DNA of 45,054 nt from Schleiferiaceae bacterium (GTDB taxonomy: Bacteria > Bacteroidota > Bacteroidia > Flavobacteriales > Schleiferiaceae), in contig JAURGG010000006.1 of assembly GCA_030833905.1 (NCBI GenBank), forward strand, positions 1 to 45,054. The letters are read 5' to 3'. Positions within the stretch are counted from its first letter, which is position 1; every line of letters begins with the position of its first letter. The notes under the pieces are model-generated. The model was not told where the DNA came from, ran no database searches, and saw only the letters and a program-made list of their open reading frames with translations. The position numbers were made by a program, and so were the translations under genes. This document shows positions 28,031-34,077 of this stretch, piece by piece.

Positions 28031-28303
28031 CTAGAGTCCGAAAAGGGCCGCAGCAAGGAGCGCGCTAAAAATGATGTACAGCAAGGGACGAATCATTTTG
28101 TGGACAATGTCCTTGGCGCAGCGCTCGCCCCGAAAGGTGAGGATTCCGCGCGAAGGATCCAAGGGGTGGGGCTGAAGCACCTTTCGGCGGATCATTTCTT
28201 GGTGAAGCAGGGATTCGCTCAGGCGAATTCCGCCTTTAGGATTCTCGTAGCGGTACACCATTCCGCGGAAGTAAATCGCTATGATGTGAAGGTCGTGCTG
28301 CAT
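28031..28303 (-). CDS. small uncharacterised membrane protein
   Basis: The 90-residue product has one hydrophobic helix at its C-terminus (LLYIIFSALLAAALFGL) and a basic soluble part. I do not recognise a family. A second ATG at 28261 would give 76 residues starting MVYRYENPKGG. The first ATG is nine bases after the cryptochrome stop, so it fits translational linkage. It sits between the DASH cryptochrome and the DUF2490 gene in the same transcript. A single C-terminal helix could make it a tail-anchored protein. Its position suggests, but does not show, a role linked to light response. Confidence 0.6.
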   Translation of the reverse strand: MQHDLHIIAIYFRGMVYRYENPKGGIRLSESLLHQEMIRRKVLQPHPLDPSRGILTFRGERCAKDIVHKMIRPLLYIIFSALLAAALFGL

Positions 28304-28312
28304 TCGGCCAAG

Positions 28313-29536
28313 TTAGCCACGGCGAAGCCAATGTGCACGAAAGGTCCCGTCGGCGTCGTAGTCGGATGCTTGTTTGGCGGTATTGAAGCGGCGAACGGGG
28401 CGCGGATCATTGCCGACTCCCGCGATGTAGGCCCAATTGGCCCAATTGCTTGCAGGATCGTAGTCAAGGAGTTGCGATTCAAAGTAGGCCGCGCCGTACC
28501 TCCAGTCCATGCCGAGGTCGTGAATGAGGTAGGACGCCATGTTTTGCCGCGCACGGTTGCTGCTGAACCCTGTTTCGGCCAGTTCGCGCATGCCGGCATC
28601 AACAAAATCATCTCCGGTGGTGCCGTCCACCCAGCGTTGAAAGGCCTTAACGTTGAATCCATTTTTTGGCGGAACCTCACGAAATCCCTTCTTCTGGAAC
28701 AACGTGGGCCCTGCCGTGTATGCTACCCACTGAAAGTACTCGCGCCATAGGAGTTCGACGCGAATCCATTCCACGTCTGGACTGCCACCGAGTTCGTCCT
28801 CGAGGTCCAAGCAGGTTTGCCAAATTCGCTGTGGGCTAATAGCTCCCGAGGCGAGCCAGGGTGAAAATTTCGTCGAAAACTCCGTTCCGAGGAGCCCGTT
28901 GCGCCGGGTTTTGTACACCGCGGCGCCATCTGGATTCTTAGTGTAGGCATCAAGTCGGGCGAGCGCCGCGGCTTCGCCCGCTTCAAACGGAAAGGCCTCA
29001 CTCTGTGAAGTGGGGCTGAAGTCGTAGGCCTCAGTATGCAATTCTTCAAGGTCGAACAAGAATGCTTCGCGCTCGATACGGTGCCGAAAAGGGGTGAACG
29101 TGGGTGGAAGCCGATCCAAGCCGCCGGGGACTTCGCCAGGTGTCAGTAGGGTATGGGTCCAAAAGGCCCGCGTTGGAATACCGAGCGCATTCACTTCGGA
29201 TTCCTGGCGCCGTTCTTCAGTTGCTACGGCTCGGCTGTACAGCAAAGTGTGCGGCCGGTTGGCACGTAGCCAATCCAAAATGCTTCCAGGCGTTTGCTGC
29301 AGTTCCACTCCGTGGGCCTTGAGCTCGTGAGCGAGGGCACTCAGTCCTTCGCGAATCCACGTGGCCCGCTTGGGGCTCATTCGCGGAATTCCACCGAGTC
29401 CCTGAGCGCGGTCAAGGTGATTCCACGCGTACACCGCCCGCAGTTCGTTACCGGTACTGTGTGCGAGTTCTCGGGCGGAATCCCAGCAAGCGTTGTCGCT
29501 TAATCTCTGGTCGTGACGCACCCACCAAACGATCAT
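28313..29536 (-). CDS. DASH-type cryptochrome/photolyase
   Basis: DASH proteins are FAD flavoproteins that repair cyclobutane dimers in single-stranded DNA and may also act as light sensors. The 407-residue product has an N-terminal alpha/beta photolyase domain (VWWVRHDQRLSDN) and an FAD domain: TKFSPWLASGAISP (about 222-235), ELLWREYFQW (261-270), SSNRARQNMASYL (325-337), then DWRYGAAYFES, LLDYDPASNWANW and GVGNDPR. These are the DASH versions. The C-terminus stops soon after FRAHW without the usual PEL ending. Its ATG overlaps the TGA of the Fe-S photolyase gene, so the two flavoproteins are made together. Confidence 0.93.
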   Translation of the reverse strand: MIVWWVRHDQRLSDNACWDSARELAHSTGNELRAVYAWNHLDRAQGLGGIPRMSPKRATWIREGLSALAHELKAHGVELQQTPGSILDWLRANRPHTLLYSRAVATEERRQESEVNALGIPTRAFWTHTLLTPGEVPGGLDRLPPTFTPFRHRIEREAFLFDLEELHTEAYDFSPTSQSEAFPFEAGEAAALARLDAYTKNPDGAAVYKTRRNGLLGTEFSTKFSPWLASGAISPQRIWQTCLDLEDELGGSPDVEWIRVELLWREYFQWVAYTAGPTLFQKKGFREVPPKNGFNVKAFQRWVDGTTGDDFVDAGMRELAETGFSSNRARQNMASYLIHDLGMDWRYGAAYFESQLLDYDPASNWANWAYIAGVGNDPRPVRRFNTAKQASDYDADGTFRAHWLRRG

Positions 29537-31053
29537 AAATAATTTATTTTAAGTAAGTTGGATTCTGCTTGTTCAAGTAACGATTCACGGTGGTCGGGCT
29601 TCATCTTGTCCCAGGTCCGGTACACCATGCCCACACGAGGGTTGCGCTCGAGAAGGTGTCGGTTCCGCGCATAAAAATGCCAGTACAGGGCGTTGAAGGG
29701 GCAAGCGCGTTCACCCACTTTTTCGGCAACGGAATAGGCACAGTTGGCGCAGTGATTGCCCTGCTTGTGGATGTAGGCACCGCTGCTGACGTAGGGTTTG
29801 GTTCCGACGATTCCGCCGTCGGCGTACTGGCTCATGCCCCGAGTGTTGGGCATTTCGACCCATTCGAGGGCGTCGATGTAGATTCCGAGGTACCAGGCGT
29901 CAAGTTCGCGCGGGTCGAATCCGGCCAAAAGCGCGAAGTTGCCCACGACCATAAGCCGCTGGATATGGTGGGCATAGGCGGTGCGAAGGCTTTGGCCCAC
30001 CGCGACCTGCATGCAGCGCATCTGGGTTTTGCCCGTGTACATCCAGTCGGGGAGTGGTCGCTGGTGGTTGAAGTAGTTCAGCTCGGCGTATTCGGGCATT
30101 TGGGCCCAGTAAATTCCGCGAACGTACTCGCGCCAGCCGAGAATTTGGCGGATAAATCCCTCAGCGGCGGGCAGTGGGAAGGTCTCAGGATCGCTCCGCC
30201 AGGCCTTTTCAGCCGCTTCAATCACTTCACGCGGATGAAGCATTTTGGTGTTTAGCGCGAACGATATTCGGCTGTGAAACAGAAAATCCTGGCCCTCAGC
30301 GAGCGCATCTTGGTAGCGGCCAAATAAGGGGAGCCCGAACTGAATAAAGTGGTTGAGAAGAGCCAAGGATTCACTGCGGTCGCAGGGCCAAGGGAAGTCG
30401 TCAGCAAGTGCGTCGCCCCAGCGCGGGATTTCGTGGCGGTCCAGGCGAGCGTCGATCTCGCGTACGTCATGGTGAGCCCGCCATTCGGCCGGAACCGGCT
30501 GCTTCGGGTCCCAAGCTGCGCGGTTGTCGGAGTCGAAGTTCCAGGTCCCGCCCTCAGGCTGCCTGGATGCATCGAGCAAAACACCATGGCGCACGCGCAT
30601 CGCCCGGTAGAACGATTCCATGAGGTAGGTCTTTTTGCCGGCAAAGTGGGTGGCAAGTGTGCCGCGTTCGGTGAGAAAGTGTTCGCTGGGTACACAGGTT
30701 CCGATACCGTGAAGCGCTTGATCAACCCGGTATTCGTCGGGCTCTTGGTACTCAACGACCAAGTCGGTGCCCACCGAAAGTTCGCGTTTGAGGGCCTCGA
30801 GGTTGGCACGAAGGCTTCCTTTTTGGCGCGGATCGTCGAGTGTCCAGTATTCTACCCGGTGCCCGGATTGGCGAAGGTGCTGTGCAAACTGCTGGATTCC
30901 GTGCAGAAATGCCAGCATCTTTTGGCGGTGGTGGGGTGCGTAGCGGAGCTCCTCGCCCGACTCAAAAAGGGCATACACGACATCCTCGCGCACCTCGCGA
31001 AACCAGGAATGCAGCGGGTTGAGTTGGTCGCCGAGGATTAGGCGAAGAATCAT
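29533..31053 (-). CDS. iron-sulfur photolyase/cryptochrome (FeS-BCP/CryPro, PhrB-like)
   Basis: This family repairs (6-4) photoproducts or signals light, with FAD, a 4Fe-4S cluster and in studied members a ribolumazine antenna. The 506-residue length is typical. It starts [15 protein letters not shown] and has the FAD region [11 protein letters not shown] and MQVAVGQSL. Cysteines at 347, 435, 438 and 451 have the same spacing as the cluster ligands of Agrobacterium PhrB (350, 438, 441, 454, from memory), with HCANCAY and RACPFN around them. Its start overlaps the DUF2256 stop and its stop overlaps the DASH start, both as ATGA. Repair versus signalling cannot be settled from sequence by eye. 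Confidence 0.95.
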
Positions 31054-31209: not shown

Positions 31210-31839
31210 TTAAAGCTGCTCAGGATGGGATTCGGGCTGGGCGTAGCTCAGCGCTACCAGCGCGCTGCTGTGGTGGTAGGTGTCGAGTCCCTGGGCCAAA
31301 AGGAGGTCGTCAGGATGCTGCACGTGACCTCTGGGGTGCACCGTCGCCGACGGGTGCACGTGAACCTCAACAACCGAACCCAAGACGAGTACGGTTCCGC
31401 CTGCGAGCTGGTGTTCTTCAGTGAGCTGCAGTCCGTAGGCCACCACGGCGTCGTGGATCCGGGGCGCGTGAAGCGTTTCAAACGCTTCCCAGTTAAGACC
31501 CACCGCGTCCAGTTCGCTTTCGCCCTCAGGGTACTTAGCGCTGCACTGGTGGAGTTGCTGGGCCTGAGCGGTTCCGCCCGCGAGCACGTGAAAGCCAAAG
31601 CAGCCTTGGGCGCGCACGTAGCGAAGCCCCTGGTGTTCTGCAGTCAACGGGCGAAAAAGGAATCCGAGCTGCGGCGGATTCGCGCTAACGTGAAGTGTTT
31701 GGCTGAACACGGCCGCATTGGCGACACCTTGGGGCGAAAAGCTGGTGAGCAACCCCACCTGCCGCGGGCCGCCCAACGAATTGAAGAACTGTGCGCGGAA
31801 GCGGGGTTCCCACGCGTTCCAAGTTTCCGGAGTAAGCAT
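31210..31839 (-). CDS. flavin reductase-like FMN-binding protein
   Basis: The 209-residue product fits the flavin-reductase-like split barrel: [29 protein letters not shown] at the N-terminus, [11 protein letters not shown], a middle part with the pattern [31 protein letters not shown], and a C-terminal strand [13 protein letters not shown]. Such proteins reduce or bind FMN/FAD. Within this operon it may keep photolyase flavins reduced or provide flavin, an inference from position only. Its ATG follows the SDR stop with no gap; the small DUF2256 gene begins four bases after its own stop. Confidence 0.85.
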
Positions 31840-32520
31840 TTAGGGGCGCAAGCTGCTCATACCGCCGTCGACGCCCAAAACTTGGCCGCTGATCCATGGA
31901 TTGTCGATTAAGGCGAGGCCGGCATGGGCTAGTTCGCCCACCTGACCCACTCGCTTGAGGGGGTGGCGCTCAGCTGCAGCGGCAGCACGTGCCTCGTTGC
32001 CCAACAGCTTTGAAGCCAGGGGAGTGTCGGTGAGCGAAGGAGCCACCGCGTTCACGCGCACGGCAGGCGCCCATTCGGCGGCCAGCGACCGAACAAGGCC
32101 TTCAACGGCCCCTTTGGCCATGGCGATGCTGGCGTGGTAGCTCATTCCTTGGCCCACGGCCACGGTGCTGAATAACAAGGCGGCACCTTGAGCTGCACGC
32201 AAGGCCTTTTCGGCTTTTTGCAGTGCCAAAGCTGCACCCAGTGCATTGATTTCGAAGTCGCTGCGGAATTCTTCTGGTTTGTAGCCCTTGAACGGCTTAA
32301 GGTTGATGCTGCCCGGAGCATAGATGAATCCGTCCAGCGCCTCCGGAAGTCCTGAACCGTCCCAATTCAGGATGTCGGCTTGAAATTCTGTTAAATTGGG
32401 GTGGACAAGGCCCGATTCGCTGCGCGACAGTCCGACTACGGCGTCCCCGCGGTTCAAAAGGAGTTCCGTGAGGGCGCGTCCGATTCCGCTCCGGTGCCCA
32501 ACGACAAAGTAGGTTTTCAT
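31840..32520 (-). CDS. SDR-family oxidoreductase with unusual active site
   Basis: The 226-residue product begins MKTYFVVGHRSGIGRAL, the Rossmann dinucleotide loop of short-chain dehydrogenases, and ends with the family SGQVLGVDGGMSSLRP. The usual catalytic Tyr-x-x-x-Lys is missing: the segment reads SYHASIAMAKGA, with Ile four residues before the Lys. A Tyr is present eight residues before the Lys. I recall SDRs next to photolyase genes with similar HASIAxAK segments, so this may be family-wide. The ATG at 32520 is chosen because the Rossmann strand follows at once. It is the first gene of the light operon, divergent from hutH. No clear -7 box is visible for it. Confidence 0.85.
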   Translation of the reverse strand: MKTYFVVGHRSGIGRALTELLLNRGDAVVGLSRSESGLVHPNLTEFQADILNWDGSGLPEALDGFIYAPGSINLKPFKGYKPEEFRSDFEINALGAALALQKAEKALRAAQGAALLFSTVAVGQGMSYHASIAMAKGAVEGLVRSLAAEWAPAVRVNAVAPSLTDTPLASKLLGNEARAAAAAERHPLKRVGQVGELAHAGLALIDNPWISGQVLGVDGGMSSLRP

Positions 32521-32543
32521 ACCATGGCTAACACCGCCGGGAC

Positions 32544-32551
32544 TACTTTTG
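32544..32551 (+). promoter_or_regulatory. -7 promoter box of hutH
   Basis: TACTTTTG matches TAnnTTTG, 17 bases before the ATG at 32569, the same distance as in nusB. It lies downstream of an earlier in-frame ATG (32524), which argues against that start. Confidence 0.55.
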
Positions 32552-32568
32552 TTGAAACCCTTGACCGC

Positions 32569-34077
32569 ATGGCGCAGCACCCCCTCAACCTGACCCACCA
32601 TTGGACCCTTTCGGACTGGCAGCACGTGGCCGAAGGCCGCGCAGATTTGATGTTGAGTCCGTCCGACCGCAAGCTCGTGGCCGCAAACCGAGCCGCAGTC
32701 GAGCGCGGAATCGAGTCCGGCCGTGTCGTCTACGGGGTCAATACCGGTTTTGGGGCGCTTTGCACGACCGCTGTGGCGCGCGAAGATTTGCGTGCACTTC
32801 AGCGAAACTTAATCATTAGCCACGCGGCGGGCGCGGGTCCATTGGCCGAGCCGGCCATTGTTCGCCTCATGCTGGCGTCGAAAGCGCGGAACCTTGCACT
32901 GGCGCACTCCGGCGTTCGCCCCGAACTCCTCGATGCGGTGCTGACGCTGTACCGTGCTGATGCGTTGCCCGAAGTTCCGCTTATGGGTTCACTGGGTGCG
33001 TCCGGTGACTTGGCGCCACTCGCGCACCTGTCGCTTGCCTTGCTCGGTGAAGCCCACGTACTGCACCGCGGGCACCGCAAGCCGGCGGCTCAGTTCTGGG
33101 AAGAACTCGGCGTGGAGCCCCAAGTGCTCGAGGCCAAAGAGGGACTTGCGCTCATCAACGGAACCCAGTTCATGCAAGCTGTGGGTCTGGCGTCTGCACT
33201 CAAGGCGGCACAGGTGGCTGCCTGGGCTGATGCCGTCGGAACCGCTTCACTACTGGCCTTTGACGGAATGCCTTCGCCGTTTGAGGACCGGGTTCACGCC
33301 TTGCGTCCGCACCAGGGTCAAGGAATGGTGGCGCAGAACATTCGCTCCTGGGCTGAGGGATCGCCGCTGTGGCACTACGAAAAGCCGCATGTGCAGGATC
33401 CGTACTCCTTTCGCTGCATGCCCCAAGTTCACGGCGCAAGCCGCGATGCATGGCGCTACGTCGTGGGCGTTCTGCAGACAGAGTCCGCATCTGTGACCGA
33501 CAACCCTTTGGTATTCACTGAAAGCGGAGATGGGGTGAGTGCCGGACATTTTCACGGACAACCGCTAGCACTAGCCTTTGACTACGCCAAAATTGCGAGT
33601 GCCGAGTGGGGCAGCATCAGCGAGCGCCGCATCAACCAACTTACGCTGGGCAAGCGCGGCCTTCCGATGTTTTTGGCCGCAGACAGCGGTGTCGAAAGCG
33701 GACTGATGATCGTACAGTATGCCGCGGCGGCTCTGGTGAGCCGAAACAAGCAGCGCGCCACGCCCGCAAGTGCCGACAGTATTGATAGCAGTGCGGGCCA
33801 AGAGGACCACGTCAGTATGGGCGCCAACGCAGCAACTGATTTGTACGAGGTTTTGGGCAACGTCGAGCGCATTCTTGCCATGGAATGGCTGTGCGCCGTG
33901 CAGGCCTCTGAACGCAGCGGTCGAAACCTCGGTCCGCGCCTCGAAGCCCTAAAGCAGGATTTTCGGTCGAAGTACCCGGCCACATCTGGAGATTACTACG
34001 CCCACGAGGCGATGGAGGCTTCGCTCGCGTTTGTTGCGGCCGCCAAGCTCAGCAGCCTGGACTCGAGCGCGTTTTAA
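32569..34077 (+). CDS. hutH: histidine ammonia-lyase
   Basis: HutH removes ammonia from histidine to give urocanate. The 502-residue form has the MIO-forming Ala-Ser-Gly in GSLGASGDLAPLAHL at residues 144-146, next to the position in known enzymes (Ser143). Other motifs are YGVNTGFG, HAAGAGP, NGTQFMQA, QDPYSFRCMPQVHG and NPLVF. The frame is open upstream, with ATGs at 32524 and 32401. I chose 32569 because a promoter box ends 17 bases before it and the length and MIO position become typical. The rest of the histidine utilisation pathway is not here. The stop overlaps the convergent rsmE stop by three bases (TTAA). Confidence 0.95.
   Translation: MAQHPLNLTHHWTLSDWQHVAEGRADLMLSPSDRKLVAANRAAVERGIESGRVVYGVNTGFGALCTTAVAREDLRALQRNLIISHAAGAGPLAEPAIVRLMLASKARNLALAHSGVRPELLDAVLTLYRADALPEVPLMGSLGASGDLAPLAHLSLALLGEAHVLHRGHRKPAAQFWEELGVEPQVLEAKEGLALINGTQFMQAVGLASALKAAQVAAWADAVGTASLLAFDGMPSPFEDRVHALRPHQGQGMVAQNIRSWAEGSPLWHYEKPHVQDPYSFRCMPQVHGASRDAWRYVVGVLQTESASVTDNPLVFTESGDGVSAGHFHGQPLALAFDYAKIASAEWGSISERRINQLTLGKRGLPMFLAADSGVESGLMIVQYAAAALVSRNKQRATPASADSIDSSAGQEDHVSMGANAATDLYEVLGNVERILAMEWLCAVQASERSGRNLGPRLEALKQDFRSKYPATSGDYYAHEAMEASLAFVAAAKLSSLDSSAF

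Follow-up and report, generated by a model that had tools for sequence, protein, structure and literature searches.

The window analysed here, a 45,054-nucleotide stretch of DNA from a Schleiferiaceae bacterium, encodes a short-chain dehydrogenase/reductase (SDR), termed SDR*, in which the catalytic Tyr is replaced. SDRs form a very large enzyme superfamily, and that tyrosine is usually taken as essential. Comparison with relatives shows that its absence, at position 132, is a fixed trait of the SDR* family and no local oddity; moreover, SDR* is no chance neighbour of photolyases. A nearby His is invariant in this Tyr-less family, and the genomes with SDR* nearly always have extra photolyases, so SDR* probably works with the light-repair system as a partner that has gone unstudied. 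The reading that we tentatively favour makes SDR* an active oxidoreductase of the NADP(H) type that works through His129 and Lys136 and, jointly with the adjoining flavoprotein FlRed, serves the photolyase/cryptochrome system, most likely in tetrahydropterin reduction.

The SDR* frame runs on the minus strand from an ATG at 32520 to a stop codon at 31840–31842. A longer GTG frame, reaching 32625, finds no support in where relatives start. A preliminary description had presented the protein as an SDR without Tyr-x-x-x-Lys, with Ile in the Tyr place, a single nearby Tyr eight residues from the Lys, and intact Rossmann loop and C-terminus, and these points were borne out. The segment concerned, SYHASIAMAKGA, was confirmed in SDR* and holds Tyr128, His129, Ile132 (at Lys-4) and Lys136, with no Tyr other than Tyr128 near the Lys. 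The glycine loop reads G8-HRS-G12-I-G14 and, like the C-terminal VDGG, is intact. SDR* has the Rossmann fold and GxxxGxG loop that define the SDR superfamily; of the marks of classical SDRs, it has the Ser (or Thr) at Lys-17, here Thr119, and lacks Tyr-x-x-x-Lys. Its Pfam match is adh_short_C2 (PF13561, E 1.3e-33). The 25 NCBIfam matches listed, of 169, all fall below cut-off (the best, PRK07041, at 92.5 versus 257 bits), and for six further SDR* members the same holds among the matches listed at E up to 1e-30. L002 and L003, two other SDR-like genes in the genome of the window, retain YAASK, and that genome carries a separate FabI-like gene.

Table 1. Features of SDR* and adjoining genes in the window. 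Counts out of 48 refer to distinct family-level homologues; counts out of 81 refer to the window protein plus the best 80 of at least 587 relatives.
Feature	Position	Strand	Remarks
SDR* (226 aa), short-chain dehydrogenase/reductase lacking the catalytic Tyr	31840..32520 (stop codon included)	minus	open frame
FlRed, split-barrel flavin-reductase-like protein	31210..31839	minus	PF01613; first base right after SDR* stop codon
DPRP photolyase (FeS-BCP type)	29533..31053	minus	PF04244
DASH-type cryptochrome/photolyase	28313..29536	minus	TIGR02765, 367 bits versus cut-off 317.05
Nucleotide-binding loop GHRSGIG, Gly8-Gly14	32479..32499	minus	G8 and G12 48/48; G14 46/48
Thr119, Lys-17, classical catalytic Ser place	32164..32166	minus	80/81; Ser there in 28/31 control SDRs
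Tyr128, Lys-8, upstream Tyr of the preliminary description	32137..32139	minus	mostly Phe among relatives
His129, Lys-7, slot of FabI tyrosine	32134..32136	minus	48/48, 81/81; FabI column match
Ile132, Lys-4, replacing catalytic Tyr	32125..32127	minus	Val 48 / Ile 33 of 81
Lys136, catalytic-type Lys	32113..32115	minus	81/81

Eighty genomes were searched at family level, and close SDR* homologues were found in most. The 64 extracted proteins gave 48 distinct ones once identical and X-rich rows were removed, a chimera (L026) having been dropped before. All 48 have His129, Lys136, Ser118, Thr119 and Glu140, and 45 have Arg33; position 132 is Ile in 26 and Val in 22, and Tyr in none. A scan of the genome collection matched at least 594 stretches, at least 587 of them encoding a relative, and the best 80 of these were kept. 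They come mainly from Bacteroidota, but include Thiocapsa, Lamprobacter, Halochromatium, Methylomonas and two Verrucomicrobia-type records. Adding the window protein gives a set of 81 sequences, which shares some genomes with the set of 48. Here position 132 is Val in 48 and Ile in 33, again never Tyr, while His129, Lys136 and Ser118 are each present in 81/81 and Thr119 in 80, the remaining one having Ser. Conservation in both homologue sets rules out a local pseudogene, decay or a sequencing error.

The same 81 sequences (window protein plus best 80 of at least 587) bear on what might replace the lost Tyr. The preliminary description had named as its refuting case that the upstream Tyr takes the normal catalytic position, and had raised His as another candidate. 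Since position 128 is Phe in 67 of the 81 (Tyr in 13, His in 1), Tyr128 is no substitute for the catalytic Tyr and such a takeover is unlikely, while the candidate His, at 129, is invariant. Tyr67 was considered as a further stand-in and is also unlikely, with Phe in 2/81. A control set of SDRs from the relatives comprised 32 rows, of which one fragment was set aside to leave 31 alignable stretches; it consists of the best PF13561 matches and is therefore rich in FabG. Tyr stands at Lys-4 in 28 of the 31, the exceptions being one SDR* and two FabI. In this control alignment the Tyr of the two FabI proteins falls gap-free in the His129 column, and their Met in the Ile132 column.

The photolyase context noted earlier was likewise confirmed. 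In the window SDR* is followed, gap-free, by FlRed, then by the DPRP photolyase and the DASH cryptochrome. The closest solved protein to the FlRed family profile is 3fge (E 1.7e-89), and the best solved match to DPRP is 7ykn, named 6-4 photolyase (FeS-BCP, CryPro; E 8.9e-161). Directly past the DASH gene is a 90-aa frame (28031–28303) with no Pfam or NCBIfam match, which also follows DASH in the close relatives L056 and L062. On its other side SDR* (ATG 32520, minus strand) is divergent from a histidase gene (first ATG 32524, plus strand). Plausible start codons of the two are at most about 50 bases apart (32518–32570), which leaves no room for promoters clear of both the opposite gene and one another.

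Neighbourhoods were read at 120 loci, six of which gave no SDR* gene call. A frequent order in relatives is MerR/B12-binding regulator (labelled LitR), ECF sigma factor, CrtI, PSY, IDI, PTPS, FolE, SDR*, FlRed, PHR. Five Cytophagales records (Belliella, Arthrospiribacter, Mongoliibacter, Lunatimonas, Aquiflexum) have PTPS-FolE-SDR*-(two small genes)-FlRed. There is no photolyase among the annotated flanking genes of Mongoliibacter (L127), the one record of the five whose flank is annotated. At the best 80 of at least 587 loci, the genes within 6 kb of SDR* include PHR or DPRP in 32, FlRed in 28, PTPS in 15 and FolE in 14; 57 of the 80 loci have at least one of the neighbours sought and 23 have none, several loci ending at contig ends. 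Some other lineages have SDR*-FlRed beside photolyases with no pterin gene nearby, and the Thiocapsa, Lamprobacter and Methylomonas members have no photolyase among their few annotated neighbours.

The genome of the window itself has, on contig C171 (L152:5508-12277), a complete light-type operon of MerR/B12 regulator, ECF sigma, CrtI, PSY, IDI, PTPS, FolE and photolyase. It is without exactly the SDR*-FlRed pair, which in relatives lies between FolE and the photolyase and here is located in the window. Two other proteins recur at SDR* loci. One, cluster C18 (e.g. L141:7532-7993, L147:7393-7881), is about 154 aa long, has no Pfam match and in 11 loci adjoins SDR* or photolyases. The other, cluster C22 (L119:10093-11538 and nine more), is an NmrA-like protein with DUF2867 found near SDR* in Bacteroidota loci, frequently in ones that lack FlRed.

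Co-inheritance was followed in 99 genomes of the class, from 57 families by kinship labels, chosen so as not to select by neighbourhood. SDR*, scored as present at E up to 1e-55, was in 39 of them. With the genomes treated as independent, an overstatement because they are related, Fisher values were 4e-12 for a PF03441 photolyase (39/39 with SDR* versus 22/60 without), 1e-14 for at least two PF03441 copies (28/39 versus 1/60) and 2e-15 for PF04244, or DPRP (29/39 versus 1/60). Within the 13 families that have both states, PF03441 copies were higher with SDR* in 11, tied in two and lower in none (one-sided sign test 0.0005). The FlRed subfamily, delimited by E below 1e-45, where a clear gap sets off eight weaker matches (about 1e-26 to 1e-29) that were left out, was in 30/39 of the class-level genomes with SDR* and 2/60 without. 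SDR* and FlRed are non-adjacent in 12 of those 30 genomes, so adjacency alone does not explain their co-occurrence. Histidase, the divergent neighbour in the window, served as a control and had no association with SDR* in the 99 genomes (35/39 versus 55/60, counted by hand). Among the 39 SDR* genes, 22 have a photolyase gene within 10 kb and 10 are near neither FlRed nor a photolyase gene. DPRP itself occurs in 30 of the 99 genomes, 29 of them with SDR*; the exception, G164, has FlRed and no SDR* match. Within the family to which the window belongs, eight genomes give no strong SDR* match; these have 0, 0, 0, 1, 1, 1, 1 and 3 PF03441 matches, and 66 of the 72 other genomes have at least two (both counted by hand).

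In the reading that we favour, the site would be Thr119-His129-Lys136, spaced like the Yx6K of FabI, and His129 with Lys136 would take over the tyrosine's part in polarisation or proton relay. The invariant His129, Lys136 and Ser118, together with the conserved nucleotide loop and Arg33, speak for an enzyme whose polar group has moved; Arg at the place of Arg33 is typical of NADP preference. SDR* would work with the adjoining flavoprotein FlRed for the photolyase/cryptochrome system, and its most likely job would be a reductive step on a light-linked route to tetrahydropterins (from FolE through PTPS to an SDR), in the place occupied elsewhere by sepiapterin reductase, which acts there in tetrahydrobiopterin synthesis. 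Such a route would feed photolyase-related cofactor chemistry. What His129 does, like the activity itself, the NADP(H) preference (from Arg33), the substrate and any link to a photolyase cofactor, is inferred here. In a bolder form, which we think distinctly unlikely, FolE, PTPS, the Hx6K SDR and the split-barrel flavoprotein would constitute an undescribed pathway that supplies the photolyases and cryptochromes of Bacteroidota with a chromophore or cofactor derived from a tetrahydropterin (or of pterin/flavin type), with the SDR working by His in place of the Tyr usually taken to define the superfamily.

Light-linked pterin synthesis has a precedent in Pseudomonas mendocina, where, according to one study (PMC9758184), transcripts of folM, folE and phrB increase in the light, with control of the LitR type, though with a different SDR. 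Three genomes (G003, G025, G037) have PTPS beside a photolyase and no strong SDR* match; SDR* is therefore no obligate partner of the PTPS-photolyase operon, and the idea of the pterin pathway as its obligate context is weakened. The operon PTPS resembles mammalian PTPS, and the second PTPS copy of the same genome does so equally, so the likeness does not single out the operon copy and is weakened as proof of a tetrahydrobiopterin-like route. PTPS copy number gave no contrast, being mostly two in genomes both with and without SDR*. It is possible, if doubtful, that SDR* is an active rewired SDR with a non-pterin substrate. It would then reduce C=C or C=N bonds, its substrate being a flavin, lipid or carotenoid-derived light-stress product and FlRed its redox partner. 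This would fit a pair that accompanies different photolyases, often without a pterin gene, the presence of FolE and PTPS within 6 kb at only 14 and 15 of the best 80 of at least 587 loci, and a site spacing shared with FabI, a C=C reductase. It accords less well with the PTPS and FolE linkage in several Cytophagales records, and with Mongoliibacter, where the annotated flanking genes include no photolyase.

The preliminary description had offered either another chemistry or a role as sensor or regulator. The former is possible; the latter, at least in pure form, finds less support in the sequences. A pseudoenzyme, binding NADP(H) and serving photolyases or FlRed as sensor or scaffold, would explain both the absence, in all 81 sequences (window protein plus best 80 of at least 587), of a residue usually called essential and the co-inheritance with FlRed and photolyases. 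A scaffold, however, need not keep His129, Lys136 and Ser118 in 81/81 and Thr119 in 80/81, and FabI, according to a review (PMC9260719), shows that SDRs can function without Tyr at Lys-4. We therefore consider the pseudoenzyme unlikely, and a dead sensor less likely than an active enzyme. Far less probable still is that there is no functional link at all, SDR* being an unrelated enzyme that merely sits within the light regulon or in light-exposed lineages. The relatedness of the genomes, by which Fisher values overstate independence, and the 10/39 SDR* genes near neither partner agree with it; against it stand the within-family contrasts, never in the opposite direction (11 up, 2 tied, 0 down), the flat histidase control, the 22/39 SDR* genes within 10 kb of a photolyase gene, and an SDR*-FlRed pair that stayed with photolyases despite its different place in the window's genome.

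Full-text searches of an open-licence library listed no description of SDR* or of its photolyase link. Where a clade has fixed both the absence of the Tyr and an alternative His, it offers a natural test of the extent to which catalytic machinery can be rewired. That SDR* so closely tracks extra photolyases (DPRP, DASH, longer PF03441 forms) suggests that light-driven DNA repair has a metabolic partner not recognised before, and the antenna/cofactor question of these bacterial photolyases becomes testable with one operon.

In fold, SDR* is confidently predicted to be an otherwise complete classical SDR, although a shared fold does not show activity. The AlphaFold2 model (69 sequences) has pLDDT 92.8 and pTM 0.90, and its top structural matches are SDRs with Z about 30, the best being 6y4d (Z 30.3, 225 residues aligned, rmsd 1.7, about 29% identity). 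Among the matches listed, the nearest solved relatives by sequence and fold are classical SDRs. These (noroxomaritidine reductase 6y4d/5ff9, Ralstonia ADH 4bms, FabG) have the fold, glycine loop, Lys136 and C-terminal part in common with SDR*, and retain the Tyr at Lys-4 where SDR* has Ile/Val in 81/81 (window protein plus best 80 of at least 587). In the alignments 6y4d and 4bms have His at Lys-7, like SDR*, plus Tyr at Lys-4; a plausible history, on these sequences, starts from an ancestor that had the two residues, with later loss of the Tyr and fixation of the His.

Sepiapterin reductase and FolM-type pterin reductases are SDRs of pterin pathways, and SDR* follows PTPS and FolE in several lineages; those enzymes retain YxxxK, whereas SDR* has Ile/Val at Lys-4. 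SDRs without Tyr at Lys-4 are already known. One is 2,4-dienoyl-CoA reductase (DECR), with Ser there and other partner residues; peroxisomal DECR (4fc6) is among the Foldseek matches listed for the SDR* model. Another is FabI, a working SDR with the motif Yx6K according to a review (PMC9260719), which gives the classical triad as S146-Y159-K163 in 7alpha-HSDH and FabL as likewise without the Met of Yx2(x)Mx3K. FabI is not among the 50 matches listed in either structure comparison of SDR*, which is no argument against kinship. What appears to be new is the fixed Hx6K signature together with the tight coupling to photolyases and FlRed. The FabI/InhA enoyl-ACP reductases, divergent SDRs with Yx6K, share with SDR* an active residue at Lys-7 and a hydrophobic one at Lys-4, and differ in having Tyr where SDR* has His129 (81/81, window protein plus best 80 of at least 587) and Met where it has Ile/Val. 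From this spacing and the column match, SDR* is best described as Hx6K, the FabI spacing with His, on a classical-SDR backbone.
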